From: an uncultured Bacteroidota bacterium
GTDB taxonomy: Bacteria > Bacteroidota > Bacteroidia > Flavobacteriales > Flavobacteriaceae
Length of the DNA: 42,274 nucleotides
Reading direction: 5' to 3'
NCBI GenBank assembly: GCA_902561795.1
Contig: CACERG010000016.1
Coordinates: 1-42,274 of the forward strand
The stretch's first letter is position 1. Each line of letters starts with the position of its first letter. Positions 1-17,255 of the stretch are shown here, piece after piece. The notes beneath the pieces were generated by a model. The model was given only the letters and a program-made list of their open reading frames with translations, did not search any database and was not told the DNA's origin. The translations under genes and the position numbers were made by a program.

Positions 1-2
1 TG

Positions 3-656
3 TTAGCTTTTTTAGCTAGCTATCCATTAAAATATCTAATTAGTATAATAATTTTAGGTTTAATATCACTTTTAATTTTCATAAGCCTTGCTAGAACTTT
101 CCCCGAAATTTTTCCAAACAGAATTGATACTTGGATTAATAGAATTGAAAATTTTAAAACAGGCGAAAGCACTGATGGTAATTATCAATTGTCTAGAGCA
201 AAAACGGCAATAGTAAGTGGTAAACTTCTTGGATTAGGAGCCGGTAAAAGTAGAATGAAAAATTTTTTACCTCAGAGTTCTTCTGATTTTATTTATGCAA
301 TTATAGTTGAAGAATTTGGACTTATTGGAGGCGTAGCACTAATTTTACTCTATGTTTTATTGTTATACAGGATAGTAGTTATTTCTTATAGAACTAAAAG
401 TTCATTTGGTAAATTAACTGTAATAGGATTAGGAGTACCTGTTGTAACGCAAGCATTTGCTAATATTGGTGTGGCTCTTCAAGTAATACCAGTCACCGGA
501 CAAAACCTACCGATGATAAGTAGTGGTGGAACATCTGCGTGGGTAACCTGCATAGCTATGGGAATTATTTTGAGTGTAAGTTCCAAAATTGAATCAGATA
601 ATGATTTAAGTATAGAAAATAATAATCCTTTAAATATTTTAAGTGAGATCCATTAA
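3..656 (+). CDS. ftsW: FtsW, C-terminal part (partial, inverted segment)
   Basis: This is the C-terminal half of the SEDS-family septal peptidoglycan glycosyltransferase FtsW, an inner-membrane protein that polymerises lipid II at the division site. The frame is open from base 3 with no start codon. It begins in a membrane segment (SYPLKYL), then shows the extracytoplasmic loop with [15 protein letters not shown], the [20 protein letters not shown] signature, and the final transmembrane helices with [11 protein letters not shown]. It ends in a stop at 654-656. The N-terminal 161 residues of the same gene lie on the opposite strand at 1109-1591. By comparison with family members I remember, only about 15-20 residues are missing between the two parts. 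The gene is therefore one ftsW split by an inverted join, not two paralogues. The following murG overlaps its end, as in the usual dcw order. Confidence 0.9.
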
Positions 657-1119
657 ATTTATAATATCTGGAGGGGGTACAGGTGGCCATATCTATCCAG
701 CATTAGCTATTGCTTCTGGGATAAAAGATAATTACAAAAATCCTGAAATATTATTTGTTGGTGCCAGAGGGAAAATGGAAATGGATAGAATACCTAAAGA
801 AGGATTTCCAATAAAAGGTCTTTGGATAAGTGGATTTAAAAGATCGCTATCATTATCTAATTTATTATTTCCTTTAAAATTAATAGTCAGCTTGTTACAT
901 TCTTTGCTTATTATTTTAAGATTTAAACCACATATAGTTATTGGGACAGGCGGATTTGCAAGCGGACCTCTTTTACAAGTCGCTACATGGCTTAATTATC
1001 CAACTCTTATTCAAGAACAAAACTCTTATCCAGGTGTAACTAACCGTATTTTAAGTAAAAAGGTAGACCGTATTTGTGTAGCGTTCGATAATATGGAAAA
1101 ATTTTTTCCAAAATCAAAA
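643..1119 (+). CDS. murG: MurG, N-terminal part (partial, cut by the inversion junction)
   Basis: MurG is the GT28-family UDP-GlcNAc:undecaprenyl-pyrophosphoryl-MurNAc-pentapeptide transferase, which makes lipid II at the inner face of the membrane. The N-terminal domain is clear: the glycine-rich loop [19 protein letters not shown] near residues 7-25, [12 protein letters not shown] at about 100-111, and [14 protein letters not shown] at about 122-135. The likely start is GTG at 643, overlapping the ftsW stop by 14 bases. Homology runs to about residue 158 (MEKFFPKSK). After that the frame runs into reverse-strand ftsW sequence and ends in a chance stop at 1165-1167. The donor-binding C-terminal domain, about 200 residues, is absent. 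I read this as truncation by a chimeric join rather than a decayed gene. Confidence 0.88.
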
Positions 1120-1120
1120 G
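1104..1120. other. Inverted junction between murG (plus) and ftsW (minus)
   Basis: Plus-strand reading follows MurG up to roughly base 1119. Minus-strand reading follows FtsW down to roughly base 1109 ([11 protein letters not shown], where family members continue with PANFST). About ten bases (AAATCAAAAG) could belong to either side, so the join has short microhomology. Everything left of it is inverted relative to the dcw cluster. The exact breakpoint cannot be fixed from one sequence. Confidence 0.8.
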
Positions 1121-1591
1121 CACAATTACAAATACAGGAAGCCAAAAATGTAATAATGAATTTTTAAGGTTAAAATTTAAAGTTTGCAATTTTGATAAAT
1201 ATTTCGCGGAGTAAACCATTAAAACTATAGATGCAAGTGTAGAAGTTTGAAAACTTATCCCTACAATAGGAATTTTAATCCATCTACTCGCATTAGCTCC
1301 AGAAATTATTGTACCCTGGGAGAGAGTATATATAAGCAAAAGAATTACAATTGGAAGCATAAGAATTGAAATTCCCTTAAAGTATTTAAATGGAATTTTA
1401 TGGGTTGAAAACATCAAAAGGAACCCTATACTTAGAATAATAAAATGTTTAAAGAAATATCCCCAGGGAGTTCCTTTACCAACTACATATACTAAATTTG
1501 TACTCGAACTAAAGATTGGTAAAAATGAAAATATGGCTAATAATGCTATAATACCCCATAAAACTTTATCACCCTTTAATGAATCTAACAT
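1109..1591 (-). CDS. ftsW: FtsW, N-terminal part (partial)
   Basis: This is the first 161 residues of FtsW, starting with ATG at 1591, three bases after the murD stop. It contains about five hydrophobic segments, a periplasmic loop with [11 protein letters not shown] at about residues 98-108, and [12 protein letters not shown] at about 114-125, a pattern typical of Bacteroidota FtsW. Homology ends with LLIL at residue 161. The following residues ([14 protein letters not shown]) are the reverse complement of murG and continue as a chance frame to base 1040. The rest of the protein is on the plus strand at 3-656. An intact copy would have about 400 residues. Tight spacing after murD indicates co-transcription with the dcw operon. 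Confidence 0.9.
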
Positions 1592-1594
1592 TAA

Positions 1595-2929
1595 TTATAA
1601 ATTTCTTACCGCTTCTTTGAATTGATTACCTCTGTCTTCATAATTCTTAAATAAATCAAAACTTGCACAAGCTGGTGAAAGAAGAACTGTTTCTTTAGCT
1701 AATGCTATCTTATTTGAAATTTTCACTGCTTCACTCATTGATTGAGTTTCAACCAAAATGTTAACCACATTTTGAAAAGTATTACAAAGTTTTTCATTAT
1801 TTATTCCTAGGCATATAATAGCTTTAACTTTTTTTCTAACTAGAGGCAAAAGAGACTTATAATTGTTTCCTTTGTCTACTCCTCCAGCTATCCAAACTAT
1901 AGGCGTATCGATGCTATCAAGAGCGAAAAATGTGGCATTAGTATTTGTTGCTTTAGAATCATCTATATACTTAACTCTTTGTATTGTTAGTACTTTTTCC
2001 ATCCTGTGAGGAGCACCCTTAAAATGGGTTAAGCTTTCTCTAACAGAGTCTTTGCTAATGTCTAATATACTGGCTATTGTAGATGCTGCCATTGCGTTTA
2101 GTAAGTTATGTCGGCCAGATAAAGTAAAATTTGTATAGTTTATCATAGTTGTTTTGTTTTTTAGTTTAACAATAAAATTTTTATTTTTTGTGTACACACC
2201 CTCATTTATAGGTATTTCTGAAATTGGAATCTTTCTTGCTTTAACATTTGTATGTTCTAATGCTTTCATTATTGTCTTATCATTGGAGTTAAAAAGAAAA
2301 AAATCTTTTCTAGATTGATTCTTTATGATTTTCAATTTGGCTTTTACATAATTTTCAAAATTAAAATTGTAGCGGTCCAAGTGGTCATCAGTTATGTTTG
2401 TAATTACTGCTATATGAGGTGAAAATCTATGAATATCATCTAGCTGAAAACTGCTTATTTCAAGTACATATATATCAAAATCCATTTTGGCTACTTGTAA
2501 TGAAAAACTATTTCCTATATTTCCTGCAATTCCAACATTAAGCCCAGCATCCTTCAATATTTGATAAGTTAAAAGCGTAGTTGTAGTTTTCCCATTTGTA
2601 CCTGTAATCCCAATCAAAATTGCAGATGTATGTAATGCAGCAAATTCAATTTCAGAAATTACATTTTTGCCTTTTTCTTTTAAGGATTTAATTACTTGAG
2701 TATTAGATGAGATCCCAGGGCTTTTTACTACATAATCAGCCGAAATTAAATTTTCTATTGAATGTTTGCCTGATTCCCATTTAATTCCCTCTGTAGATAG
2801 TATATTTTTTAATTTAGTGTCAATTTTTTTCTTCTCGGAAACAAAAACTTCGTAACCATTTTTCTTTCCTAAAATAGCTGCACCAACTCCACTTTCACCT
2901 GCACCCAAAACTGCTAACTTTTTATACAT
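1595..2929 (-). CDS. murD: UDP-N-acetylmuramoylalanine--D-glutamate ligase
   Basis: MurD is the cytoplasmic Mur ligase that adds D-glutamate to UDP-MurNAc-L-Ala. The 444-residue length fits the family. An N-terminal UDP-binding Rossmann domain opens with AVLGAGESGVGAA, the ATP-binding loop [12 protein letters not shown] lies near residues 107-118, NITDDHLDRY sits in the central domain, and the C-terminal domain has SPACASFDLFKNYEDRG near residues 415-431. I chose ATG at 2929, whose A overlaps the last base of the mraY TGA stop. A GTG one codon earlier (2932) is also possible. It sits between mraY and ftsW in the standard dcw order, with near-zero spacing on both sides, so it is almost certainly co-transcribed. 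Confidence 0.95.
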   Translation of the reverse strand: MYKKLAVLGAGESGVGAAILGKKNGYEVFVSEKKKIDTKLKNILSTEGIKWESGKHSIENLISADYVVKSPGISSNTQVIKSLKEKGKNVISEIEFAALHTSAILIGITGTNGKTTTTLLTYQILKDAGLNVGIAGNIGNSFSLQVAKMDFDIYVLEISSFQLDDIHRFSPHIAVITNITDDHLDRYNFNFENYVKAKLKIIKNQSRKDFFLFNSNDKTIMKALEHTNVKARKIPISEIPINEGVYTKNKNFIVKLKNKTTMINYTNFTLSGRHNLLNAMAASTIASILDISKDSVRESLTHFKGAPHRMEKVLTIQRVKYIDDSKATNTNATFFALDSIDTPIVWIAGGVDKGNNYKSLLPLVRKKVKAIICLGINNEKLCNTFQNVVNILVETQSMSEAVKISNKIALAKETVLLSPACASFDLFKNYEDRGNQFKEAVRNL

Positions 2930-4149
2930 CACCTAATTTTTAAGGTTACAATTGTTAGAACTGCAAGTACGATACCTATAATCCAGAACCTCGCAACTAT
3001 TTTACTCTCATGAAAACCTAGCTTTTGGTAATGGTGATGTAATGGGGCCATTTTAAAAATTCGTTTTCCAACTCCTGTCTTTGATCTCGAATATTTGAAA
3101 TAGGTTACTTGAAAAATTACAGATAATGTTTCTATAAAAAATACACCACAAAGAATTGGAATAAGTAATTCTTTTCTAATAATAATTGAAATGACTGAAA
3201 TAACAGCTCCAATTGTAAGACTACCGGTATCACCCATAAAAATTTCTGCTGGATAGGCATTAAACCATAAAAAGCCAATTAGAGCTCCTAAAAATGCAGA
3301 TATAAAAACAACTATCTCACCTATGTTCGGTATGTACATGATATTTAAATAAGAGGCAAAATTTATATTACCTGATACAAATGAAAATATTGCCAATACA
3401 AATACAATTATAGCAGAGCTTCCAGCTGCCAATCCATCAATGCCGTCAGTCAGATTTGCGCCATTAGAAACAGCCGTAATTATAAATATTACAATTGGAA
3501 TAAAGATTATCCAAGTATATTTTCTATTAATACCTGACCATTTAATTAAGTTGTAATAATCAAATTGATTATTTTTAAACAAAGGAATGGTAGTTAAGCT
3601 AGCTTTGACATTTTTCTCAACAGTACTAGTACTACTGGTTACAATTTTATTAATACTTGATTTTGCCTTAGTCCTCAAGGTCACCTCTGGATGAAAAAAT
3701 AGAATCGTCCCTACAAAAGCACCTAATAGTATTTGACCAAAAACTTTAAATTTCCCTTTTAATCCTTTTTTATTTTTTTTGAAAATCTTTATGTAATCAT
3801 CAAGCCATCCGATAAAACCAATCCACAAAACTGTTGAAATCAATAAAACAATATAAATATTATCGAGTTTTGCTAATAAAAACACTGGTATAAGAGTTCC
3901 AAAAATAATAATTAAACCTCCCATTGAAGGAGTTCCCTGTTTTTCAATTTGCCCCTTTAATCCCAGATCTCTTATGTTTTCACCTATTTGTTTTTTCTTT
4001 AAAAATTTTATGAATTTTTTACCAAAAAGCATCGAGAAACTTGTTGAAAATATTACCGCTATTGATGCTCTGAAGGAAATATATTGAAATAAACTAGCTC
4101 CTGTAAGATTATATTGTTTTTCAAAAAATTCAAATAAGTAATAAAACAT
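2929..4149 (-). CDS. mraY: Phospho-N-acetylmuramoyl-pentapeptide-transferase
   Basis: MraY transfers phospho-MurNAc-pentapeptide from UDP to undecaprenyl phosphate, forming lipid I in the inner membrane. The protein has about ten hydrophobic segments and the family signatures: [12 protein letters not shown] near the start, [32 protein letters not shown] and the HHHYQK motif close to the C-terminus. The frame is open upstream to 4215, but those extra residues lie inside murE and lack family similarity. ATG at 4149 gives 406 residues ([14 protein letters not shown]), the usual length for this phylum, and follows the murE stop by one base. It overlaps the start of murD by one base. Confidence 0.95.
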
Positions 4150-4150
4150 A

Positions 4151-5608
4151 CTATCCCGTTTTAAAATATTTTTTTGCAATGTTAAAATCATTAAAAGGAT
4201 AAAGGTTTCCATCAATTTCTTGATAGGATTCGTGCCCCTTTCCAGCTATAAGGACAATATCACCCTTTTTGACTAATTGTTTTGACATCATAATTGCTTC
4301 TTCTCTTAGTGAAATTTTGAGTGTTTTTTTATAGTTTTCAGCTGCGACACCTTCCATCATTTCAGATATTATTTTAGAAGGATCTTCATCTCTAGGATTA
4401 TCTGAAGTGAATATTACCTTGTCACATAATTCGGAGGCAATTTTACCCATCATTGGTCTTTTTTCACGATCACGATTACCGCCACAACCAATTAGAACTA
4501 GAAATGTTTCATTTCGTGTTCTAATTTTATTAATTGTTTCTAAAATATTTTCTAGAGCCTTTGGTGTATGGGCATAATCAATTATAACAGTAATATCATC
4601 TTCTGAGGTAAATGTTTGAAAACGACCATCAGCAGATTTTAATAGACTAATATTTTTCAAAATCTTTAGTTTAGGAATCTCAAATATATCCGCTACTGCA
4701 AAAGCAGCTAAAAGATTTTGGCTATTATAATTTCCAACCAAATTAGTCCATACCTCCTGGTTTTCAATTTTCAACAACATACCCGAAAATTGACACTCTA
4801 GAATTTTTAATTTAAAGTCTGAATTTTGATTTGTTGAATATGTATATTTTTTTGCTTTGGTGTTTTGGATCATAAATGGTCCATTTTTATCATCAAGATT
4901 TGTTAATGCAAAAGCATTGTTGGGAAGAATATCAAAAAAATGTTTTTTTACATCTCTGTAATTTTTGAAAGTACCATGGTAGTCAAGATGGTCGTGAGTG
5001 ATATTTGTAAACACTCCACCTGAAAAGTTTAGACCTTCTATTCGATTTTGTGAAATACCATGTGAAGAAACTTCCATAAAACAATATTTTATACCAAAAT
5101 CAACCATTTGCCTTAAATAATGATTAATAGATATTGAATCAGGTGTTGTGTACTTGTTTTCGAACTCATTATTAGAAAATTTAACTTTAACTGTAGAAAT
5201 CAAACCACTCATTAAACCCAAGCTAGAAAATAATTCATATAATAACCATACTACCGATGTTTTACCATTTGTACCAGTAATACCAACTAAACATAGTTCT
5301 TTAGATGGGTTAGAATAAAAATTTGATGAAATTATCCCTAAAGCCAAAGACGCATTCTTAACTAATATAAACGTCACATCAAAATCTAGTATATCAGGTA
5401 TTGATTCACATACAACTGCTGTCGCACCATTTTCAATCGCTTTAGAAATAAATTGATTGCCGTCAAATTGATTGCCCTTTTGAGCAATAAACAAACAATT
5501 TTTTTTAATGTTTCTACTATCAAAGCTTATGGAAGATATTTTGACTTTTGGATTTCCAAAAATTCCTTCAATAGGCACTTTATATAGTATGTCTTGTAGT
5601 TGTTTCAA
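4151..5608 (-). CDS. murE: UDP-MurNAc-L-Ala-D-Glu--2,6-diaminopimelate ligase
   Basis: MurE adds the third stem-peptide residue to the peptidoglycan precursor in the cytoplasm. Its 485 residues match the family. The ATP loop [10 protein letters not shown] is at residues 109-118, [13 protein letters not shown] lies near 201-213, and [10 protein letters not shown] near 341-350. DNPR at 403-406 is the established signature for meso-diaminopimelate rather than lysine, so this organism should have Gram-negative-type diaminopimelate cross-links. The start at 5608 overlaps the end of ftsI by four bases (ATGA-type coupling). It lies in the dcw cluster between ftsI and mraY. Confidence 0.96.
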
Positions 5609-7596
5609 GTTAACTCAAGTAAAATTTTTTGATTGATTTGTATCTTAGACCCTGGTTTTATTGATTGTGATTTTACTTTTCCTTTTCCTCTAACTTCTAC
5701 TCTTAAACCAATTTTTTTTAGAACTTTTATTGCATCTTTATCTGAAAGACCAGCAACATCAGGTACACCATTATTTATTTTTAATCTGCTATCAATTTTA
5801 TCAAGATTAGAAACCGATTCTGAACTTATTTTAACTTCAAACGGAATATTATTGTATATTTTTTTTGCAATCGATTTAAATACTGGTGCAGCGACTGTAG
5901 CACCATAGTAACCCATTGATTTATCAGGTCTATGGATTACAACTATACAAGAATATTTTGGCTTGTCTGCTGGATAATATCCAACAAAACTAGAGATGTA
6001 TTGAACATCATTTTTATGATAGTCTATCTGACAAGTTCCTGTTTTACCAGCCATTTTAAGTAACGAATCTTTGATTTTATGTGCAGTTCCCCACTTTTTT
6101 TCAACCACATTTAACATCATTTTTTTTACCTTTTTCAAAGTTTTTTTTGAACAAATTGATGGGTTTAAAATTTGTTTTTTAAATATTTTTGCAGGTGAAT
6201 TTCCTTTGTTACTAATTTTACTTAAAAAACGAGGTTTTACTAACTCACCATTATTTGCAATTGCATTATAGAATGCTAAAAGCTGTAATGGAGTTAAGCT
6301 AACACCATAGCCATATGCCATCCAGGGTAAGTCTAGACCATCCCAATCAGAATCTGAAGGGTGTGGAATTTTAGGTATTCCCTCACCAAGTATAGGGAGT
6401 TTGAGACTTTTGTTCAAGCCCATATTATAAAGTCTATCTACAAATTTTTCAGGATATTTTTTGTAATTATCATAAATAATTTTAACTAATCCTACATTTG
6501 AAGAAACCTCGAAAGCTTTTGCAGCAGTTATAAGACCATAACCTCCTTTTTTAGAGTCTTTAACTTTATATTTTTTGAAAAAAATCAATTCTCCTTTACC
6601 AGTATCTACGATTGATTTTTCGTCAATTACATTATCTTCTAGAGCCGCAATAATAGCCATTAGTTTAAACGTTGATCCTGGTTCATTTGTTTCTCCCACT
6701 GCATAGTTTAATTTTTCAAAGTATTTTCCTTCGTGAGTTCTTCCAAGATTTGCGATAGCTTTTATTGCACCACTTTTAACTTCCATCAGAATAGCAGTTC
6801 CATGTTCAGCCTTGTACTTCTCAAGTTGGAAAAGGAGTGCATTATGAACAATATCCTGAAATTTTATATCTATGGTTGTGTGTATGTCATAGCCTTCTGT
6901 CGGTTCTTTTTCGTTGGAATCACTAATTGGTTTCCATTGTCCATTCGCAATTTTTTGTTTCAATCTTAGCCCGGGGTTACCTCTTAAAAATTCTGAAAAA
7001 GCTCCTTCTAGACCAACTCTAAAAAAAGAACCATTTTTACCTTTTATTTCATAGCCTATGGTTCGCTCAGCTAATTTACCAAGTGGGTTTTCTCTTCTAA
7101 TATCTTGTTCAACAATTAATCCTCCACGGTATAGACTTTGATTAAAAATGGGAAAGGATTTGAACCTTTTGTACTCAGAAAAACTTAATCCTTTTGCAAT
7201 TAGTAAATATCTATTTTTTTCTTTTCTGGCGCTTTCGAGTTTATTTATAATTATTTCACTTGGTACCTCTTTAAAAGCTGATATAGAATCTGCCAAATCA
7301 TTTTTTTGTGTGTTGAATAAATATTGTGAGGGAATTATTGCATCCCAATATAAATCAAAACGAGGAATAGAAGTTGCTAGAATATTTCCGTCTGCTGAAA
7401 AAATATCTCCTCTACTTGGTTCCAGGACTACATTCTTCACAAGAGTATCAGGTTGAATGTCAAGGCCTTCATTATTTTGATAAAATTGAATATATACTAA
7501 CTTTCCTATTAATAGAAAAGAGAAAAATAAAAGTAATGATGTGAAAAAGTAAAACCTCAACATTAATCTTTTAAAAAAATTTTGTTTATCATTCAT
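5605..7596 (-). CDS. ftsI: Septal transpeptidase FtsI (PBP3) with a C-terminal PASTA domain
   Basis: This class B penicillin-binding protein cross-links septal peptidoglycan in the periplasm and partners FtsW. ATG at 7596 (MNDKQNFFKRL) overlaps the ftsL end by eight bases and puts one membrane anchor near residues 14-35. The open frame extends to 7638, but the added residues lie wholly within ftsL. A PBP dimerisation domain follows (LEPSRGDIFSADGNILA). The transpeptidase domain has the serine nucleophile in STFK (about residue 308), SSN (about 365-367) and KTGT (about 518-521). A single PASTA repeat covers about the last 55 residues (VPDVAGLSDKDAIKVLKKIG). The length of 663 residues and the position fit Bacteroidota FtsI. 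Confidence 0.95.
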   Translation of the reverse strand: MNDKQNFFKRLMLRFYFFTSLLLFFSFLLIGKLVYIQFYQNNEGLDIQPDTLVKNVVLEPSRGDIFSADGNILATSIPRFDLYWDAIIPSQYLFNTQKNDLADSISAFKEVPSEIIINKLESARKEKNRYLLIAKGLSFSEYKRFKSFPIFNQSLYRGGLIVEQDIRRENPLGKLAERTIGYEIKGKNGSFFRVGLEGAFSEFLRGNPGLRLKQKIANGQWKPISDSNEKEPTEGYDIHTTIDIKFQDIVHNALLFQLEKYKAEHGTAILMEVKSGAIKAIANLGRTHEGKYFEKLNYAVGETNEPGSTFKLMAIIAALEDNVIDEKSIVDTGKGELIFFKKYKVKDSKKGGYGLITAAKAFEVSSNVGLVKIIYDNYKKYPEKFVDRLYNMGLNKSLKLPILGEGIPKIPHPSDSDWDGLDLPWMAYGYGVSLTPLQLLAFYNAIANNGELVKPRFLSKISNKGNSPAKIFKKQILNPSICSKKTLKKVKKMMLNVVEKKWGTAHKIKDSLLKMAGKTGTCQIDYHKNDVQYISSFVGYYPADKPKYSCIVVIHRPDKSMGYYGATVAAPVFKSIAKKIYNNIPFEVKISSESVSNLDKIDSRLKINNGVPDVAGLSDKDAIKVLKKIGLRVEVRGKGKVKSQSIKPGSKIQINQKILLELT

Positions 7597-7900
7597 CCGA
7601 TACAATAATTTTGATAGGTGGTATGGGTGCTGGAACAATACCTTTAGATAATAATTTTTGGCTCACAGATGATTCTTTTTTTAAAATCAAAAGTTCTTGT
7701 TTGACTTGTATGAAATCACTTTTTAAAGATTTTATACTAGTGTTCAGTGACGAAATTTTAAAAATCTTTTTGTCTGCACTGTGACCACTTGAAATCATAA
7801 TAACGGCAAGCATTGAAATAAAAAGAATCATTTTCCAATTTTTTGAAGAATTGTCTCTAACCAAAAAGTCAATGTTTAAAAAAGATTTTAATTTTTTCAT
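7589..7900 (-). CDS. ftsL: FtsL-like division protein
   Basis: This is a small bitopic membrane protein of 103 residues. It has a charged N-terminus of about 25 residues, one hydrophobic helix (ILFISMLAVIMISSG, about 25-39), then a polar region with heptad-like spacing (about 45-85) suggesting a coiled coil, and a proline-rich tail. Sequence conservation in FtsL is always low, so the call rests on topology, size and position: it lies exactly between rsmH and ftsI, where ftsL is found across bacteria. FtsL is known to form a complex with FtsB and FtsQ that activates FtsI and FtsW. The start overlaps rsmH by four bases and the end overlaps ftsI by eight, showing translational coupling. Confidence 0.8.
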   Translation of the reverse strand: MKKLKSFLNIDFLVRDNSSKNWKMILFISMLAVIMISSGHSADKKIFKISSLNTSIKSLKSDFIQVKQELLILKKESSVSQKLLSKGIVPAPIPPIKIIVSDE

Positions 7901-8796
7901 TTTTTTTGAGCAATTCTAAGTTTAGCACTTCTAGACCTTGGATTTGATTTTATCTCCTCACTAGAGGGGATAATTAATCTTCCGACTCTATTAAGAAGTT
8001 TTAGTGGGTTTCCAAAAAAATCTTTGTCCTCTTTCTTATCGAAATTTCCATTTTGAAAAAAATGTTTTACACAGCGATCTTCTAATGAATGGTAGGATAT
8101 ACAAACCAAACGCCCCCCTGGTTTTAGTAGACTGGAAGATTGTTTTAACAGTGATTTTAAAACCCCAAGTTCATTATTCACTTCAATTCGAATTGCTTGA
8201 AAAATTTGTGCTAAAAACTTATTTTTCAGTCTCTTTGGAGTCAGTGGTTTCAATACATCAATCAAATCAAAAGTTGTACATATATCATTTTTTTTTCTAG
8301 AGTCAAGAATATTCTGTGTAATTTTTTTTGCACTTCTTAATTCACCATATCTTCTGAATATTTGATTTAATGATTTCTCATCATAAGAATTAATTACCTT
8401 ATGAGCATCTAAACTTTGACTTTTATTCATCCGCATATCTAATCTGCCAGATTTTCGAATTGAAAACCCCCTTAATTGTTGATCGAATTGATGTGATGAA
8501 ACACCCAAATCAGCAAGTATCCCGTCTACAGAATCAATTTGATAATATTTTAAATATTGTGTTAAGAAAGAAAAATTTGCGACTATTAATTCAAAACGAC
8601 TATCGTCTATTTTGTTTATAGCAGAGTCTGGATCTTGATCAAAGCCAAATAATTTTCCATCTTTATTTAACTTTTTTAAAATTTCTCTTGAATGCCCTCC
8701 ACCCCCATATGTAGCATCAACATATACACCACTTGGATAAATTTTTAGTCCTCTTAATACCTCTTCAGTTAAAACTGATTTATGATATACTTCCAT
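7897..8796 (-). CDS. rsmH: 16S rRNA (cytosine(1402)-N4)-methyltransferase
   Basis: RsmH (formerly MraW) methylates N4 of C1402 in 16S rRNA using S-adenosylmethionine. Family marks are YHKSVLTEEVLRGL at the N-terminus, the SAM-binding YVDATYGGGGHS, FGFDQDPDSA, ILADLGVSSHQFD, and the late motif VCISYHSLEDRCVK. The C-terminus (NPRSRSAKLRIA) is also typical. ATG at 8796 gives about 299 residues and overlaps mraZ by 17 bases. A GTG at 8808 in the same frame would add four residues. It is the second gene of the dcw cluster, directly after mraZ as in most bacteria. Confidence 0.95.
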   Translation of the reverse strand: MEVYHKSVLTEEVLRGLKIYPSGVYVDATYGGGGHSREILKKLNKDGKLFGFDQDPDSAINKIDDSRFELIVANFSFLTQYLKYYQIDSVDGILADLGVSSHQFDQQLRGFSIRKSGRLDMRMNKSQSLDAHKVINSYDEKSLNQIFRRYGELRSAKKITQNILDSRKKNDICTTFDLIDVLKPLTPKRLKNKFLAQIFQAIRIEVNNELGVLKSLLKQSSSLLKPGGRLVCISYHSLEDRCVKHFFQNGNFDKKEDKDFFGNPLKLLNRVGRLIIPSSEEIKSNPRSRSAKLRIAQKK

Positions 8797-9247
8797 AATT
8801 TTTGTCACCCATTACTTCTTCGGCTAATGCTCCAAAATTCAAAGTAGCCTCATTAATTACTTTTTCGTATGTAGATTTATTCCAAATTTCTAGAATATTG
8901 ACTGATGACGATACTACAATTTCTTTATCTATGGAAGCATATTTTATTAAATCTTTAGAGATTAGGAATCGTCCAGAATTATCCATTTCAACTGATTTAA
9001 CACCAGCAGTAAACCGACGTATAAAGTCGTTATTTTTCTTGTTGAACCTATTTAAGCTATTTAACTTGTCCATAAGTTTAGCCCACTCACTCAAAGGATA
9101 CATTTCAATGCAATGGTTAAATACTGATCGTTTCAAAACAAAACCTTCATTAATTAATTTTGAAAGTTGCTTTTTTAAAGCAATCGGCATCATTACCCGA
9201 CCTTTAGTATCAACTTTACATTCGTATGTACCGATAAGATGTTCCAC
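8780..9247 (-). CDS. mraZ: Transcriptional regulator MraZ
   Basis: MraZ is the conserved first gene of the dcw cluster and a DNA-binding protein with two AbrB-like half domains. Both repeats are visible: YECKVDTKGRVMMPIALKKQL at the N-terminus and VEMDNSGRFLISKDLIKYA near residues 86-104, each with the typical D-x-x-G-R core. The length of 155 residues fits Bacteroidota MraZ. Family knowledge says it binds tandem repeats upstream of its own gene and represses the cluster. Three such repeats are visible at 9281-9310. The start ATG at 9247 lies about 20 bases downstream of a consensus -7 element. Confidence 0.95.
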   Translation of the reverse strand: MEHLIGTYECKVDTKGRVMMPIALKKQLSKLINEGFVLKRSVFNHCIEMYPLSEWAKLMDKLNSLNRFNKKNNDFIRRFTAGVKSVEMDNSGRFLISKDLIKYASIDKEIVVSSSVNILEIWNKSTYEKVINEATLNFGALAEEVMGDKNYGSIS

Positions 9248-9266
9248 TCAACATTATGATTTATAT

Positions 9267-9274
9267 CAAATATA
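9267..9274 (-). promoter_or_regulatory. Predicted -7 promoter element of the mraZ/dcw operon
   Basis: The minus strand reads TATATTTG, a full match to the Bacteroidota -7 consensus TAnnTTTG. Transcription would start about 12-15 bases before the mraZ start codon. No clear TTG -33 element is visible, because that region is occupied by the MraZ box repeats at 9281-9310. MraZ binding there would cover the promoter, which fits autorepression (inference). Confidence 0.55.
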
Positions 9275-9280
9275 AATTTA

Positions 9281-9310
9281 ATTTACCACATTTTACCACA
9301 TTTCACCACA
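9281..9310 (-). promoter_or_regulatory. MraZ operator: three 10-base direct repeats
   Basis: Three consecutive 10-base units lie 34-63 bases upstream of mraZ. On the minus strand they read TGTGGTGAAA, TGTGGTAAAA and TGTGGTAAAT. The exact 10-base period places them on one face of the helix. Known MraZ sites in other bacteria are tandem GTGG- or TGGG-type repeats with the same period, so this is very probably the autoregulatory operator. Confidence 0.8.
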
Positions 9311-9395
9311 TTGTTAATAAGTTTTGACACTTTTCAATCATATCCATCATACTTTTTGGCTTGAAATAAAAAGTATTAGCTATGTTGTAAATGTC

Positions 9396-9403
9396 TATAT
9401 TTG
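9396..9403 (+). promoter_or_regulatory. Predicted -7 element for the alpha/beta hydrolase gene
   Basis: TATATTTG matches the Bacteroidota TAnnTTTG consensus, 29 bases before the start codon at 9432. No good TTG element stands at the expected distance upstream, so support is partial. It would drive the hydrolase and ysxC, divergently from the mraZ promoter. Confidence 0.4.
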
Positions 9404-9431
9404 AATTTAAATTTTGTAGGATTAAGGGATA

Positions 9432-10193
9432 ATGAATAACATAATTCAAAAACATAAATTCCGTTACGTGGAATCTGGTGCTGGACAACCGATCATTATT
9501 CTTCACGGCTTAATGGGTGGATTGAGTAATTTTTCGGGTGTGATGAATCACTTCCCAGGTAAAAAATATCATGTAATTATACCAGAACTTCCAGTTTATT
9601 CACTGCCAATTCTTGATACTTCCGTAAAATCACTTTCAAATTACCTTTACAAGTTTATATCATTTAGAAAGCTTAGTGATATTATTTTGCTCGGTAATTC
9701 CTTAGGAGGCCATGTAGGTCTTCTTTTTATAAAAAGCTATCCTAAGTTAGTAAAAGGTCTTGTTTTAACTGGTAGTTCAGGTTTGTATGAAAACAATATG
9801 GGTGATGGATACCCTAAACGAGGAGATTATGAGTATATTAAGAAGAAAAGTGAGGCTGTATTTTTTGATCCTAAAATAGCAAGCAAAGAAATTGTCGATA
9901 GAGTATTTGAATCAGTCAATGATAGAAATAAGTTGTTACGAACTTTAGCACTCGCGAAAAGCGCAATTAGACATAATATGGCAAATGAATTACCAAAAAT
10001 AAAAACTCCTACTGCAATAATCTGGGGTAAACAGGATACAGTAACACCTCCTAATGTAGCTAAAGAATTTCATGAACTGCTTCCTAATTCAAATTTGTAT
10101 TGGATTGATAAATGTGGACACGCCCCTATGATGGAACATCCACAAAAATTTAATACAATTTTAGAGAATTGGCTTGAGGCTAGAAATTTCTGA
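9432..10193 (+). CDS. Alpha/beta-fold hydrolase
   Basis: A cytoplasmic alpha/beta hydrolase of 253 residues with no signal peptide. The oxyanion-region motif ILHGLMGG is near residues 23-30, the nucleophile elbow GNSLGGH near 89-95 supplies the catalytic serine, and the acid precedes the C-terminal histidine in DKCGHAPMMEHP near 230-241. The substrate cannot be told from the sequence. Related proteins are annotated as esterases, haloperoxidase-like or MhpC-like hydrolases. It is followed after six bases by ysxC, an arrangement I recall from other Flavobacteriia, so the two are probably co-transcribed. The catalytic triad looks intact. Confidence 0.88.
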   Translation: MNNIIQKHKFRYVESGAGQPIIILHGLMGGLSNFSGVMNHFPGKKYHVIIPELPVYSLPILDTSVKSLSNYLYKFISFRKLSDIILLGNSLGGHVGLLFIKSYPKLVKGLVLTGSSGLYENNMGDGYPKRGDYEYIKKKSEAVFFDPKIASKEIVDRVFESVNDRNKLLRTLALAKSAIRHNMANELPKIKTPTAIIWGKQDTVTPPNVAKEFHELLPNSNLYWIDKCGHAPMMEHPQKFNTILENWLEARNF

Positions 10194-10199
10194 AAAAAC

Positions 10200-10817
10200 A
10201 TGCAAGTCAAATCAAGTCGCTTTATTATTAGTAACACAGATGTAGAAATGTGCCCAAAAAATGATTTGCCAGAATACGCTTTCATTGGAAGATCTAATGT
10301 TGGTAAATCATCGTTAATAAATTCGATTTGTAATAAAAAAAAATTAGCCAAAACATCTTCCACTCCTGGAAAAACAATCTTAATTAATCATTATCTTATC
10401 AATGAAAGTTGGTACTTAGTTGATCTGCCTGGTTATGGATTTTCTAGATTATCTAAAATTCAAAAAAATAAAATTGAAGCACTCATAAAAAACTATTTTA
10501 AAAAAAGAAAACAATTAATAAATGCTTTTTTATTGATTGACATTCGTCATCAGCCACAAAACTTTGATCTTGAATTTATGTTATGGCTAAATAAAAATTT
10601 GATTTCTTTTTCAATAATTTTTACGAAGTCTGATAAACTGAAAATTAATGTAATTGAAAAAAATATTCTTGAATACAAAAACACAATGTGCCAGAATAAT
10701 TGGGAATCTATCCCTCCCATTTTTGTGTCATCTTCAAAAAAAAACACAGGGAAAGAAAAAGTTTTAGGCTATATTAAAATCCTTAACTCTGAATTTTATA
10801 AGTATAAGAAAAATTAA
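10200..10817 (+). CDS. ysxC: Ribosome biogenesis GTPase YsxC/EngB (YihA)
   Basis: This TrmE-Era-EngA-EngB-Septin-type GTPase of 205 residues is needed for late assembly of the large ribosomal subunit. Nucleotide-binding motifs are clear: G1 FIGRSNVGKSSLIN at residues 28-41, a G2 threonine region (STPGKTILIN), G3 DLPGYGF at about 75-81, G4 TKSDK and a G5-like SSSKK near 175. The start ATG at 10200 lies six bases after the hydrolase stop. The stop codon shares bases with the stop of the convergent gldC (TTAA at 10814-10817), so no terminator fits between the two genes. Confidence 0.95.
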   Translation: MQVKSSRFIISNTDVEMCPKNDLPEYAFIGRSNVGKSSLINSICNKKKLAKTSSTPGKTILINHYLINESWYLVDLPGYGFSRLSKIQKNKIEALIKNYFKKRKQLINAFLLIDIRHQPQNFDLEFMLWLNKNLISFSIIFTKSDKLKINVIEKNILEYKNTMCQNNWESIPPIFVSSSKKNTGKEKVLGYIKILNSEFYKYKKN

Positions 10818-11152
10818 TTTTTTTTTAACTTAAAAGCTTCTGCATAATAATCGCAGAAGTCTCTAATTGTTTGGGTCATCTTCTCGTCATTAGTCGCTTT
10901 ATAAAATGTATCACTCATTGACACAAAAGTCTGATGAAAAAATAATTTCATCTGATCCAATGGCATATCTTTAACCCATAAATCCATTTTAAGCGTTTCT
11001 TGATTTTCTGAATCCCAAAATGAAAGTAATATAGCCTTAGATTCCATTTTTGAAATACCACCATCTTTAGCTGACCAACTTATTTTTTCTGGTACTTTAT
11101 TTTCATCTAAATTAACATCAATTGTAATTTGAGTTTTTTTGTTTGTTGTCAT
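10814..11152 (-). CDS. gldC: Gliding motility protein GldC
   Basis: A small, acidic, probably cytoplasmic protein of 112 residues resembling GldC of Flavobacterium over its whole length: ITIDVNLDENKVPEKISWSA near the start, AILLSFWDSENQETLKMDLW in the middle, and the C-terminal FCDYYAEAF. GldC is linked to gliding motility in Flavobacterium johnsoniae, but homologues also occur in non-gliding Flavobacteriia, so motility does not follow. The biochemical role is unknown. The start codon overlaps the gldB stop by one base (TAATG), so the genes form an operon. Confidence 0.9.
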   Translation of the reverse strand: MTTNKKTQITIDVNLDENKVPEKISWSAKDGGISKMESKAILLSFWDSENQETLKMDLWVKDMPLDQMKLFFHQTFVSMSDTFYKATNDEKMTQTIRDFCDYYAEAFKLKKN

Positions 11153-12150
11153 TATTGTTTTGGTTTGTATTTTGAAAGATTAAAAAGTTCTTGTGAAGAA
11201 AGATTTAGAAGTTCTATTATTTTTGTCTCTGGGTTTTGCTTGCAATAGCTTCTGACTATTTGCCAACCTAGCCAAACACCTATTTTCCCTGGAGATTCAT
11301 TATCAATTTGCAAATAAAATTTAGAAAATGGTGCCGGCTCTAAGAAACGTCCCACTAAATCAGAATCCGTTTTAAATAAAATTTGTTTTTCTACAAAATA
11401 CTGCCAAATTAAACGTTCATTTTCTTGTGCCCATTTTATTTCTTCTTCAGTGTAAGCAATTTTTATATTATCCTTTAAATGCGGTAGAAATATATCTTTC
11501 AAATACATTTTTTTACCCTCATACAATATTTTTGCAAGAAAAGTTCTTTCATTTGGAGGAGGGAAACTATACATTGCAAATTTATCTAAAATTTGGGATG
11601 TAATATATTTTCTATCTAATTCTTTCTTAATATAACTTGGAATGCCTTCATAAAGAATATGATTGGGACCCAAGAAAGTATCTAGAGAAATCAAAAGTAT
11701 ACTGTCAGCAAACACAGTCTTTAATTGATAGTCAACATTATTAGTTAAAAATATAACTCTTGATAGATTAATTTCAGGAAATTGAAATTTTATTCTTTCA
11801 AATAAATCTGTTATATCACTTTCAACATCCAATAAATCTGGAAACTCATTTTGAACAGCATTTTGGAGAATTAATTGTAAACTATCTTTTTGTCTATTTT
11901 CCCAGATACTATCCGAAAATTGTTTTGGAAATAAAAAAGAATAATCTTTTTTTAATTTTGGAATCACACTTGGTGGTTGATTATAAAACTTTAAATCAAA
12001 GCGTTCAAAACTCAATGAAATTGGTTTTCTTTTTTCATTATTATTTCGATTATTACATGAATAAAAAAAAATAAATAAAACAAAAATAATATGGTAGAAG
12101 TGAGAAAAAGAAAAAAAAACTTTAAGTACCGTTTTAAGATTTGCTATCAT
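11152..12150 (-). CDS. gldB: Gliding motility lipoprotein GldB
   Basis: A predicted lipoprotein of 332 residues. A hydrophobic signal segment (about residues 18-29) ends in FFYSC, a lipobox whose cysteine is at about residue 31, followed by an asparagine- and lysine-rich linker. The body matches GldB as I know it: ISLSFERFDLKFYN near the start, LISLDTFLGPNH around 150-160, the FPPPNERTFLAKILYEGK segment, and KIGVWLGWQIVRSY near the C-terminus. GldB is essential for gliding in Flavobacterium johnsoniae, and its molecular function is unknown. It is coupled to gldC downstream and divergent from nadE, with only 50 bases between them. Confidence 0.9.
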   Translation of the reverse strand: MIANLKTVLKVFFSFSHFYHIIFVLFIFFYSCNNRNNNEKRKPISLSFERFDLKFYNQPPSVIPKLKKDYSFLFPKQFSDSIWENRQKDSLQLILQNAVQNEFPDLLDVESDITDLFERIKFQFPEINLSRVIFLTNNVDYQLKTVFADSILLISLDTFLGPNHILYEGIPSYIKKELDRKYITSQILDKFAMYSFPPPNERTFLAKILYEGKKMYLKDIFLPHLKDNIKIAYTEEEIKWAQENERLIWQYFVEKQILFKTDSDLVGRFLEPAPFSKFYLQIDNESPGKIGVWLGWQIVRSYCKQNPETKIIELLNLSSQELFNLSKYKPKQ

Positions 12151-12171
12151 ATTTACAAAAATGTAATTTTG
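12140..12171 (+). promoter_or_regulatory. Predicted nadE promoter (TTTG-N20-TAATTTTG)
   Basis: TTTG at 12140-12143 is followed after 20 bases by TAATTTTG at 12164-12171, a full match to both elements of the Bacteroidota housekeeping promoter. The predicted start of transcription is about 20 bases upstream of the nadE ATG at 12201. The promoter overlaps the first codons of the divergent gldB. Confidence 0.6.
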
Positions 12172-12200
12172 TGCAAATTTAATTTTTTAACAATAAAAAA

Positions 12201-12992
12201 ATGAAATCAGGAGAAAAAGTAGAAAGACATATTATAAAATGGTTAAAGGATTATTTAAATAAATCTAAAATGCAAGGCTTCGTTGTAGGTGTTTCTGGAG
12301 GAATTGACTCTGCAGTAACCTCTACACTTTGTGCAAAAACAGGTTTTAAATTACTTTGTTTAGAAATGCCAATTAAGCAACAATCATCACAAGATTCTAG
12401 AGCTTCTGATCATATAAACTGGTTAAAAAAGAATTTCAAAAATGTATCGTCATCAAGAATATCTCTTGATAAAGTCTTCTCCTCTTTTATAAAAATAATT
12501 CCTAAGACAGAAAATCATGATGCGCAATTTCATAGCTTGGCCAATACCCGTGCTAGGCTAAGGATGACAAGTTTATATTATTTTGCTGCACTAAATAATT
12601 ATTTAGTTACAGGGACAGGAAACAAAGTTGAGGACTTTGGAGTTGGATTTTATACAAAATATGGGGATGGAGGTGTTGACATTAGCCCTATAGCTGATTT
12701 AAATAAAACTCAGGTTTTTTCATTGGCAGAACATTTAAAAATACTAGATTCAATACAAAAAGCTGCACCGACCGACGGTCTATGGGAAGATAATCGAACT
12801 GATGAAGAACAAATAGGAGCCAGTTATGCTGAACTTGAGTGGGCTATGGAAGCTCATAAGAATAAGTTATCCAAATCTAATTTTACAGCACGAGAAACAG
12901 AAGTATTCGATATATATCTAAATTTCAATAAGAAAAATCAACACAAAATGAATCCAATTCCGGTATGTTTTATACCAAAAAACTTTATTTGA
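12201..12992 (+). CDS. nadE: NH3-dependent NAD(+) synthetase
   Basis: NadE amidates nicotinic acid adenine dinucleotide to NAD in the last step of NAD synthesis. The PP-loop SGGIDS is at residues 32-37. TGTGNKVEDFGVGFYTKYGD carries the deamido-NAD and ATP contacts, and the C-terminal part has APTDGLWEDNRTDEEQIG. At 263 residues it is the short, ammonia-dependent form without a glutaminase domain, so ammonia must come from elsewhere. It is transcribed divergently from gldB-gldC, a neighbourhood I recall from Flavobacteriia. The 159-base gap to dnaG (12993-13151) is convergent and AT-rich. I see no strong hairpin there and no gene. Confidence 0.95.
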   Translation: MKSGEKVERHIIKWLKDYLNKSKMQGFVVGVSGGIDSAVTSTLCAKTGFKLLCLEMPIKQQSSQDSRASDHINWLKKNFKNVSSSRISLDKVFSSFIKIIPKTENHDAQFHSLANTRARLRMTSLYYFAALNNYLVTGTGNKVEDFGVGFYTKYGDGGVDISPIADLNKTQVFSLAEHLKILDSIQKAAPTDGLWEDNRTDEEQIGASYAELEWAMEAHKNKLSKSNFTARETEVFDIYLNFNKKNQHKMNPIPVCFIPKNFI

Positions 12993-13151
12993 AATTTGAG
13001 TAATAATTAAATAAAATTTTTAAAAGTTGTTCAAGTTGACCCTTATTAAGTGGTTTTGAGGGTATTTAAAACTTATTGCTATAAAAATAAATTCATCAAA
13101 TTAATACGATCTTTCTAAGGGAAAAATTAACGATAATTTAGAAACAACATT

Positions 13152-15119
13152 TTATAGTACTCTATTTAATTTTCGCGAAAGTAATTTTTTTAAGTTTTGA
13201 TACTGAATTACTTCTTCCAAAAATTCCACTTCATTGTAATTGCCCCCTTGATTTTCCGCCATTTTTACAATATTTTGAATTTTTTGGTCAACGAGATGTC
13301 TCCTAAAAGTTAAAATGGTTTCACTCACAAGCTGACCTACAACACTTTTTCGATCTTTTACAAATATATTTTTCTTTTCCCAAGCGTGAAGCTGATGTTC
13401 TTCGTCAGATAATAATATGTCTGTGAGTAATTTTACTGTATTAATATCTTTTTGTTGAACTATTTTTTCAGTTCTAATTTTACCCTCTCTTTGATAAGAG
13501 TCTATTATCTGTGTATACAAAGATTGATATTCAGGTTGAATCATTTCTATCTCATCCTGCTGTAAATCTAAAAATACTTTCTCATAAACTTTTGATTGCA
13601 CTACTTTAGATTCTTCAACTAAATTTCCGTCTGAGTCAGAGAAAATAAGAACTTCATCAAAAAAAGCCTCGTAACTTCCATAATGAACAAGTATACTTAA
13701 AATCTGTTTCTCAAGATTTAAAATAGGATTATATAAATTTGATTTTCTTTTTTTTTCAGTTGCAAATGTATTGTTTTTGGTCTCGGGAATCATCATTTTA
13801 TTTTTGCCCAGCTTATTTTTTTTGCTTTTTTCTTGGGCAAGTGCATCAAACAAAACTTGTTCTGAAACTTCCATTGCAAGAGCACATTCTTTTATGTAAA
13901 TCTCTTGTTTAATCGCATCAGGTATTTTAGATATACTAGAAACAATATCTCGAACAGTCTGCGCTTTTTTAATTGGATCACCGTCAGAATCTTTAAGAAG
14001 AAGTTCTATTTTAAATTGAATAAAGTCATTTGCTTGTTCTGAAAGGTATGTTTTTACTTTTTCAAGTTCGTTGCTTTTAACAAAGCTATCTGGGTCTTCT
14101 CCACTAGGGAAAAAACAAACTCTTACATTCATGCCTTCCTGTAAAACTAAATTTATTCCTCTTAATGCTGCCCTTTGCCCTGCTAAATCACCATCAAATA
14201 AAATAATTATATTAGAAGTTAATCTTCTTATCAATCTAATTTGCTCAAGGGTAAGTGAGGTTCCAGATGAAGAGACCACATTTTCAATTCCCTTTTGATA
14301 CATTTGAATAACATCAGTGTATCCTTCAACTAGATAGCATGAATCTTCCCTTGCTATTGCTTTTTTTGCCTCATGTAAACCATATAAAACTTCTCCTTTG
14401 CTGTATGCATCACTTTCTGGTGAATTAATGTATTTGGCTACTTTAGTGTCAGAAATAAGTGTTCTTCCTCCAAATCCAAGAATTCTTCCTGCCATGCTCT
14501 TAATTGGAAAAACAACTCTACCTCTGAAGCGGTCAATATATTCTTTATCATTTTTAATAACTAAGCCTGTTTCCAATAGGTATTTATTATCATAGCCATA
14601 ACCCAATGACTCACTGTACAAATTGTCAAATTTTTTTAGTGAATATCCCAATCCAAAAAAACGTATTGTATTTTCTTCAAATCCTCTTTCCTTAAAATAA
14701 CTTAGACCAATTGACTTGCCTTCAGATGATTCCCACAAATTTTTTGAAAAGTTTTCTTGGGCAAATTGATTAACCAAATAGAGACTTTCTAAATGATTCC
14801 GTTTTTCTTTTTCCTCTTCATTAGTTGATGTTTCCTCAATTTCAATATTATACTTATTTGCCAAATATTTTATTGCCTCAGGATAGCTAAAATGTTCATG
14901 CTCCATTAAAAATGCAACGATATTTCCACCTTTTCCGCTACTAAAATCCTTCCAAATTTGTTTGACTGGTGATACCATAAAACTTGGGGTGCGTTCCTGT
15001 GTGAAAGGACTTAGTCCTTTGAAATTTGCACCTGACTTTTTTAATGCAATAAAGTCTCCTACAACCTCTTCTACTCTAGCTGTTTGAAATACTTGATCTA
15101 TTGTTTTTTTTGATATCAA
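13152..15119 (-). CDS. dnaG: DNA primase with degenerate zinc-binding domain
   Basis: DnaG makes RNA primers for replication. The 655 residues carry the N-terminal CHC2-type domain (about 1-100), the catalytic core with the TOPRIM motifs YLVEGYTDV (about 261-269) and FDGDLAGQRAA, and a C-terminal helicase-binding region. All four expected zinc ligands are replaced: the site reads GLSPFT (Ser37, Thr40) and KDFSSGKGG (Asp58, Ser61) where typical primases have Cys, His, Cys, Cys. The rest of the domain is well conserved, so this is not decay, and I recall the same pattern in other Flavobacteriia. The start is TTG at 15119, supported by the conserved beginning MISKKTID. Confidence 0.95.
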   Translation of the reverse strand: MISKKTIDQVFQTARVEEVVGDFIALKKSGANFKGLSPFTQERTPSFMVSPVKQIWKDFSSGKGGNIVAFLMEHEHFSYPEAIKYLANKYNIEIEETSTNEEEKEKRNHLESLYLVNQFAQENFSKNLWESSEGKSIGLSYFKERGFEENTIRFFGLGYSLKKFDNLYSESLGYGYDNKYLLETGLVIKNDKEYIDRFRGRVVFPIKSMAGRILGFGGRTLISDTKVAKYINSPESDAYSKGEVLYGLHEAKKAIAREDSCYLVEGYTDVIQMYQKGIENVVSSSGTSLTLEQIRLIRRLTSNIIILFDGDLAGQRAALRGINLVLQEGMNVRVCFFPSGEDPDSFVKSNELEKVKTYLSEQANDFIQFKIELLLKDSDGDPIKKAQTVRDIVSSISKIPDAIKQEIYIKECALAMEVSEQVLFDALAQEKSKKNKLGKNKMMIPETKNNTFATEKKRKSNLYNPILNLEKQILSILVHYGSYEAFFDEVLIFSDSDGNLVEESKVVQSKVYEKVFLDLQQDEIEMIQPEYQSLYTQIIDSYQREGKIRTEKIVQQKDINTVKLLTDILLSDEEHQLHAWEKKNIFVKDRKSVVGQLVSETILTFRRHLVDQKIQNIVKMAENQGGNYNEVEFLEEVIQYQNLKKLLSRKLNRVL

Positions 15120-15176
15120 ATTGATCTTTTTATAAATTTATCAATTTATTACCAAACTTAAAGAAGAAAAAATTTG

Positions 15177-16156
15177 TTAAACGTTTCTCTCGATAACGTA
15201 GTTTAGCATTAGTTCAAGTGAATCACGATAATCATTCTTTGGAAATTCATGCAGAATTTTAATTGCATTTTGACGGTAAAAATTCATTTTTTTTTCAGCA
15301 AATTCTATACCCCCCTTTTTCCTTGACTAAATGAATTAGCTTATTAACTTTAATTTTATTTTTATTACTATTTTTTATAGTATTAATTATAAATCTTTTT
15401 TCTGATTTACTAGATTGATTTAAAACATGAATTAGTGGGAGAGTCATTTTCTTTTCTTTTATATCAATACCAATGGGTTTCCCAATTTTCTTTTTCCCAT
15501 AGTCAAATAGATCATCTTTAATTTGAAATGCCATACCAATTAATTCACCTAATTTGTACATTTTCTGGACTTCTTTTTTATTACAGTTTACGGCCTTTGC
15601 ACCAATCGCAAAACATGAAGCTAACAAAGTTGCAGTTTTTTTGACGTATAATTTCAAAATAGGTGTCTAATGTAATATCTAGTGATCTTGATTTTTCAAT
15701 TTGCAATAATTCGCCTTGACTCATTTCTCTCACGGCTACTGATATAATTTTTAATATGTCAAAATCTTCGTTCTCGATAGACAACAATAACCCTTTTGAC
15801 AAAAGATAGTCACCAACTAGTACCGCAATCTTATTTTTCCATAATGCATTTATTGAAAAAAAACCTCTTCGTTTGTAACTTTCATCAACCACATCGTCAT
15901 GGACCAGAGTTGCAGTGTGAATCAATTCAATTACAGCTGCTCCCCTGTAAGTTCTCTCATTAACCTTACCATTTCCGAACATTTTAGATACTAGAAAAAC
16001 AAACATAGGTCGCATTTGTTTACCCTTCCTATTTACAATAAAATGAGTTATTCTATTGAGTAACGAAACATTTGATGACATGGAATCTCTGAATTTCTTT
16101 TCAAAGACTTCCATCTCATCATAAATTGGTTTTTTGATTTTTTCAACAACTTTCAT
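15177..16156 (-). CDS. ispB: Polyprenyl diphosphate synthase (IspB-like), two frameshifts
   Basis: A trans-polyprenyl diphosphate synthase that would make the side chain of the respiratory quinone. It shows the GKQMRP motif, the first aspartate-rich motif VHDDVVDE and the second QIKDDLFDYG. The reading frame is broken twice: after IIRQK in an A7 run near 15642, and after VKEKGG in a G6 run near 15311. Shortening each run by one base gives IIRQKTATLLASCFAIG and VKEKGGIEFAEKKM and a continuous protein of 325 residues ending with NYVIERNV at 15177, the normal family length. The gene is probably intact in the organism and the shifts are sequencing errors. It lies 49 bases downstream of rlmN. Confidence 0.85.
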
Positions 16157-16205
16157 TTATATTGATATATTATTCACTGAGAATCATAAAATTCAAAAAA
16201 AGGTG

Positions 16206-17255
16206 TCAGTTTGAGATTAATTTATTTGCTAATTGACCGCATGCTGCATCTATATCTTTACCTCTAGATTTTCTGTATGTAACTTTTATATTAGAAAAGG
16301 TAAGAGCTTTAATATAAGCATTTATGATGTCTTGGCTAGCCTCACTTATTTTAAAATTATCTACAGGGTTATATTGAATTAAATTTACTTTAGAAGGAAT
16401 TTTTTTGCAAAATTCAACTAAAGCCTTTATGTCAGTAACTTTGTCATTAATTCCTTCCCATACAATATACTCAATAGTTACAACACTTTTTGTCTTAGTA
16501 TACCAATATAGAAGGGAATCTAGCAATTCGTCCAATTTAAATTTATTCGCAAAAGGCATAATCTTCTCTCTTGCATTCTGTATCGCACTGTGCAATGAAA
16601 CAGCAAGTTTAAATTTTACCTTTTCATCAGCAATCTTCCTGATGATCTTGGGAATACCTGAGGTTGAGAGTGTAATTCTTCTTGGTGACATTCGTAATCC
16701 ATCATTACTTGTCAATTTTTGAATTGCTTTTAAAACATTATTATAATTCATAAGAGGTTCACCCATCCCCATAAATACAATATTGGATATAGGTCTTTTA
16801 AAGTTCAATAAGCTTTCTTGATTCATCAAAAAAACTTGATCAAAAATTTCATCTATATTTAAATTACGCATCCGTTTTAAAATTGAAGTTGCACAGAAAA
16901 CGCAATCTAAACTGCATCCAACTTGGGAAGAAATACATGCTGTTATTCTCTTTGAGGTAGGAATTAAGACCGATTCAACTGCTAAATTATCATGAAGAGC
17001 GATAGAATATTTTATAGTTTTATCGTTGCTGTATTGTTTATTATTTATTCTTACATACCTTATTTGAAAGTTTTTTCTCAATAATAATCTATGGGATAAA
17101 GACAGATTTGTCATTTCATCAAAATCATGAATTCCTTTTTCCCAAAGCCATTTATAAACCTGTGTTCCTTTATATGGTGAAATTTGATTTGAAAGAAAAA
17201 AGTTCTGTAATTCAAGTTTGCTAAGACTCCTAATGTCTTTTTTGAAATTTTTCAC
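16206..17255 (-). CDS. rlmN: Dual-specificity 23S rRNA/tRNA adenine-C2 methyltransferase RlmN
   Basis: This radical SAM enzyme methylates C2 of A2503 in 23S rRNA and of A37 in tRNA. The 349-residue protein has the 4Fe-4S cluster motif CSLDCVFC (cysteines about 114, 118 and 121), the preceding ISSQVGC, the FMGMGEPLMNY motif near 163-173, and the C-terminal DIDAACGQLA whose cysteine is the catalytic one in the family. The start is GTG at 17255, which fits the usual N-terminal helix. A later start would cut it. It sits between queA and the polyprenyl synthase with short gaps. Confidence 0.95.
   Translation of the reverse strand: MKNFKKDIRSLSKLELQNFFLSNQISPYKGTQVYKWLWEKGIHDFDEMTNLSLSHRLLLRKNFQIRYVRINNKQYSNDKTIKYSIALHDNLAVESVLIPTSKRITACISSQVGCSLDCVFCATSILKRMRNLNIDEIFDQVFLMNQESLLNFKRPISNIVFMGMGEPLMNYNNVLKAIQKLTSNDGLRMSPRRITLSTSGIPKIIRKIADEKVKFKLAVSLHSAIQNAREKIMPFANKFKLDELLDSLLYWYTKTKSVVTIEYIVWEGINDKVTDIKALVEFCKKIPSKVNLIQYNPVDNFKISEASQDIINAYIKALTFSNIKVTYRKSRGKDIDAACGQLANKLISN

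Follow-up and report, generated by a model that had tools for sequence, protein, structure and literature searches.

The closest described counterparts of the structure reported here are the inverted chimeras that arise during multiple displacement amplification (MDA) of DNA. In the 2007 report by Lasken and Stockwell, 406 of the 475 chimeras seen after single-cell MDA were inverted. The segments joined in these were mostly less than 10 kb apart; of the inverted chimeras within that distance, 93.5% had complementary bases, the joins showing 2–21 of them, and the authors attributed such joins to displaced 3′ ends that prime on strands close by (PMC1855051). For the MDA products of two marine flavobacteria, Woyke and others give one chimera per 13–27 kb (PMC2668756).

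Here we analyse a join of similar form at the start of contig C16 from a flavobacterial draft genome (G000; 41 contigs, 1.73 Mb, 80.8% complete). The whole contig, 42,274 nucleotides long, is referred to as the window. As reference we used L005 (CACMZR010000004.1), from a close relative, which corresponds by position to contig C4 of the genome G030 (129033 bases) and in which we take the order of the dcw cluster to be mraW, an ftsL-like gene, ftsI, murE, mraY, murD, ftsW, murG, murC, ftsQ, ftsA and ftsZ. The names murD, ftsW and murG come from NCBIfam profiles run on the window copies, and the other dcw names were assigned by us from the ORF translations.

The split genes and the join

At the left end of the window, ftsW is present as two pieces on opposite strands. 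On the plus strand, positions 3–656 encode the C-terminal part of FtsW (residues 178–394), open at the contig end, with 94% identity by tblastn (3–653) and a match to positions 171–355 of the 357 in TIGR02614; on the same strand, 643–1119 encode the N-terminal part of MurG (residues 1–159; positions 6–153 of 353 in TIGR01133). The N-terminal part of FtsW (residues 1–161) is on the minus strand at 1110–1591, with 98% identity by tblastn (1591–1109) and a match to positions 1–149 of TIGR02614, and beside it lies an intact murD (1595–2932, minus strand; TIGR01087, 397.8 bits against a cut-off of 211.95), which precedes ftsW as it normally does. The tblastn query, searched against the window, was the intact 394-residue FtsW of L005, and the best NCBIfam match was FtsW for both ftsW arms, MurG for the murG arm and MurD for the neighbour. 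Both interrupted frames continue past the join: that of MurG to 1167, adding 15 meaningless residues out of antisense ftsW, and that of the N-terminal FtsW piece to 1040, adding 22 meaningless residues out of antisense murG.

Base-by-base comparison with L005 places the chimeric junction at 1110–1119, where 10 bases, AAAATCAAAA, are common to both arms and exact. By blastn, window positions 1110–8418 align to the minus strand of L005 (7311–3) and positions 1–1119 to its plus strand (7359–8477), the latter match extending to 1138 with a 5-base gap; on the left of the shared bases six match murG alone, and on the right four match ftsW alone. The two sites of the shared 10-mer are at 7302–7311 and 8468–8477 of L005, about 1.17 kb apart, and the 47 bases between the arms (approximately FtsW residues 162–177) are absent from the window. 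The preliminary description, drawn from the letters and their reading frames, had placed FtsW residues 1–161 on the minus strand (1591 to 1109) and had assigned the remaining ftsW with the start of murG to the plus strand (3 to 1119), joined by about ten shared bases. These coordinates are correct. The tblastn search with the L005 protein returned the same first piece, the second proved to be FtsW 178–394 plus MurG 1–159, and the shared bases number exactly 10.

In a Monte Carlo simulation of random inverted junctions (2,000,000 draws, L005 5000–10500), the mean shared run was 0.83 bases and a run of at least 10 occurred at a frequency of 5.65e-5, so infrequently that complementarity most likely contributed to the joining. 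Between ftsW and murG of L005 there are nine inverted exact 10-mers; suitable sites for joining, and thus shared 10-mers as such, are not rare. An inverted 10-base pair at both ends of the segment is also what would be expected if the 1.17-kb ftsW-murG segment had really been inverted in place between TTTTGATTTT in ftsW and AAAATCAAAA in murG, either fixed or in part of the population. The window ends ahead of the second junction that such an inversion would have and hence holds nothing that directly contradicts this junction: the contig end lies 47 bases short of it, and the C-terminal part of MurG was not found in the readable genome. A real inversion leaves this stop, just short of the second junction, unexplained.

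The codons of the two arms also bear on this alternative. Relative to L005, the silent and replacement differences number 19/3 in the N-terminal part of ftsW, 27/12 in its C-terminal part and 21/7 in murG, as compared with 51/16 in murD and 35/12 in mraY. The changes in both arms are mostly silent, like those of the neighbours, which suggests no clear sign of decay or of prolonged gene inactivity; this ordinary constraint argues against an inversion carried by the cell.

Relatives and the rest of the genome

In four genomes of the same genus (G030, G006, G028 and G036), chosen for having given matches to both arms in the junction search, the arms are colinear (4/4) and in the usual order, with an interval of 47 bases between them in every case. 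Both arms are in colinear order in a fifth genome (G024) too, 1.15 kb apart. The whole junction, used as a 161-base query against 38 genomes of the genus, had a full-length match in G000 alone and in none of the 37 others (0/37), 16 of which gave a partial match and 21 no match. Among 557 related stretches confirmed with a MurG query, the best 80, L005 included, were retained; 79 of these best 80 hold all four parts (the N- and C-terminal parts of FtsW and of MurG), and in 79 of 79 the parts are in order, on one strand and within 4 kb, as scored by order and not by open frames. The one other locus (L067) is without the N-terminal part of FtsW, at its edge. It had been proposed in the preliminary description that undoing the inversion gives murD-ftsW-murG and that related genomes should be compared for an intact ftsW-murG order; this comparison bears the proposal out, relatives being colinear wherever the order could be tested (4/4 genomes, 79/79 loci).

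We also searched G000 itself, in which seven contigs shorter than 3 kb were masked (N). Neither an intact ftsW nor a second murG was found in the readable contigs, the single murG match being the one in the window. The only other FtsW/RodA gene, on contig C22, was considered as an intact ftsW and rejected: it is a RodA by NF037961 (496.2 bits; cut-off, 150), and it is 27.6% identical to FtsW. The gene beside it is one that we take to resemble PBP2. This RodA falls below the cut-offs of the narrower RodA model TIGR02210 (324.2 vs 336.7) and of FtsW (222.6 vs 337.5). A plasmid search for FtsW relatives returned matches that were all below 60% identity, and was uninformative.

The DNA beyond the join was sought in the same way. 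In L005 the next 8 kb downstream (8480–16477) presumably comprise the rest of murG, then murC, ftsQ, ftsA, ftsZ and beyond; no equivalent was found in the readable contigs of G000, which gave matches of 31–35 bases only, and small pieces of it could be concealed in the seven masked contigs. The true continuation past MurG codon 159 was probably not recovered in the assembly, which would have left the chimeric molecule as the sole path for the assembler.

Both ftsW and murG are held to be essential. A real inversion would cut the two of them with no second copy in the readable contigs, has been seen in no relative examined (neither as the junction nor in the testable loci) and leaves the absence of the next 8 kb unexplained, and we regard it as very improbable. 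Even less credence can be given to a switch in which the segment flips back and forth at the 10-base repeats and some cells thereby shut down cell division and wall synthesis, with the window representing the off state.

The remainder of the window is ordinary in its arrangement. From 1110 to 42274 it follows G030:C4 in one alignment (53232 down to 12034) at about 94% identity with 21 small gaps; no other break in order or rearrangement was found over these positions, and the right end is colinear as well. Seven of the 21 gaps (15315, 15642, 25126, 33220, 33356, 38191 and 39076) shift the reading frame within genes; each of them is an insertion of a single base in a homopolymer run or next to one. 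A polyprenyl diphosphate synthase-like gene (15295–16156) and gcvP (32735–35598) are each split into two ORFs, and an ORF that we take to be Obg-like (24316–25167) is probably shortened by the insertion at 25126. For these seven insertions, decay of the genes seems a less likely cause than errors in sequencing or assembly. Against the overall identity of about 94%, the intergenic interval 13103–13150, between genes that we take to be nadE-like and dnaG-like, carries five deletions relative to G030 (41 bases in total). The N-terminal part of a dihydrolipoamide acyltransferase-like ORF contains two tandem stretches, 40664–40896 and 41018–41250, with 82% DNA identity; presumably these are lipoyl domains, ordinary for such a protein.

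Probable laboratory origin of the join

The join is almost certainly an artefact and not a biological feature, and we put at roughly 0.96 the probability that a fold-back chimera made in vitro accounts for the first 1.1 kb of the contig, whatever the laboratory step. As for that step, the isolate name given for L005, AG-920-B11, has the form of names given to single amplified genomes, and MAG is the term in the title of its record. Because this close relative bears a single-cell type of isolate name, we infer that G000 was amplified by MDA; MDA is the probable step at which the join arose.

The events would be as follows. As copying proceeded out of murD into ftsW, the growing strand would lose its place after TTTTGATTTT, at FtsW codon 161; the freed 3′ end would pair with its complement, AAAATCAAAA, on a strand lying close by, at a site in murG 1.17 kb downstream; and the annealed end would then be extended back via murG and ftsW on the opposite strand. 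The contig would end 47 bases before re-entry into ftsW sequence already used, and the living cell would have an ordinary colinear dcw cluster. In this account we infer the displaced 3′ end, the phi29 amplification and the reason for the contig stop.

Chimeras from ligation, PCR template switching or assembly also occur, and the usual assembly k-mers and overlaps are longer than 10 bases. An origin at a different step, be it adapter ligation, template switching during the PCR of library preparation or an assembler error, is unlikely in our judgement, though more probable than a real inversion. The seven frame-changing insertions within window genes indicate a generally imperfect sequence, whereas the joining of close segments in inverted orientation at short complementarity is the typical MDA form (PMC1855051). 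The choice left by the preliminary description, between a fold-back MDA chimera and a misassembly, can accordingly be narrowed. The chimera is supported by the relatives, by the lack of a second copy in the readable contigs and by the form of the join. Since the 10 shared bases are too few for the usual k-mer or overlap assembly, a join made by the assembler alone is less likely.

Five other contig ends of G000, selected because the strand changed or ORFs on opposite strands overlapped close to the end, were all colinear with G030 and G006 (0/5 chimeras), the first 19 and 8 bases of contig C28 being unaligned; no general excess of chimeras was therefore seen at the ends sampled. Self-comparison of 73 stretches (71 contig-end or short-contig stretches plus the two ends of the window, seven of the 73 masked) gave no inverted match within a stretch at E 1e-8. 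The fold-back of the window was missed too, and this comparison therefore cannot reveal a collapsed fold-back. Long direct repeats were observed at the starts of two other contigs, C14 (1–949 and 2401–3349, 91% identical) and C2 (1–810 and 841–1650, 99% identical); possibly these are repeat-protein genes where the assembly broke.

The default top k of SPAdes is 55. A published pipeline used SPAdes with --sc, trimmed 100 bp from the ends and kept contigs >2000 bp (PMC5519541). The smallest contig of G000 has 2020 bases, compatible with a 2-kb cut-off and not specific to it. An explanation of the contig end by k = 55 and a 100-base trim predicts a gap of 45 bases as against the 47 observed, and was not relied on.

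Comparison with an ordinary cluster and with known chimeras

Compared with the ordinary Bacteroidota dcw cluster of L005, the window keeps the same order upstream of the junction, whereas at its contig end both ftsW and murG are interrupted by the fold-back, and the DNA past MurG codon 159 was not found in the readable contigs of its genome. In an annotation of the window, ftsW and murG would appear broken and whatever follows murG would appear to be missing, yet the cluster of the relatives compared is ordinary. The case warns that gene loss, split genes and rearrangement at the contig ends of incomplete genomes can be laboratory artefacts.

The inverted chimeras of phi29 MDA were seen in raw reads of documented MDA (PMC1855051), while that of the window is in one assembled contig for which MDA is the probable step. 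In form the two are alike: (i) the join is inverted; (ii) the segments come from the same locus and are less than 10 kb apart, here 1.17 kb; (iii) complementary bases are present at the join, the 10 found here lying within the 2–21 described; and (iv) the intervening bases are deleted.
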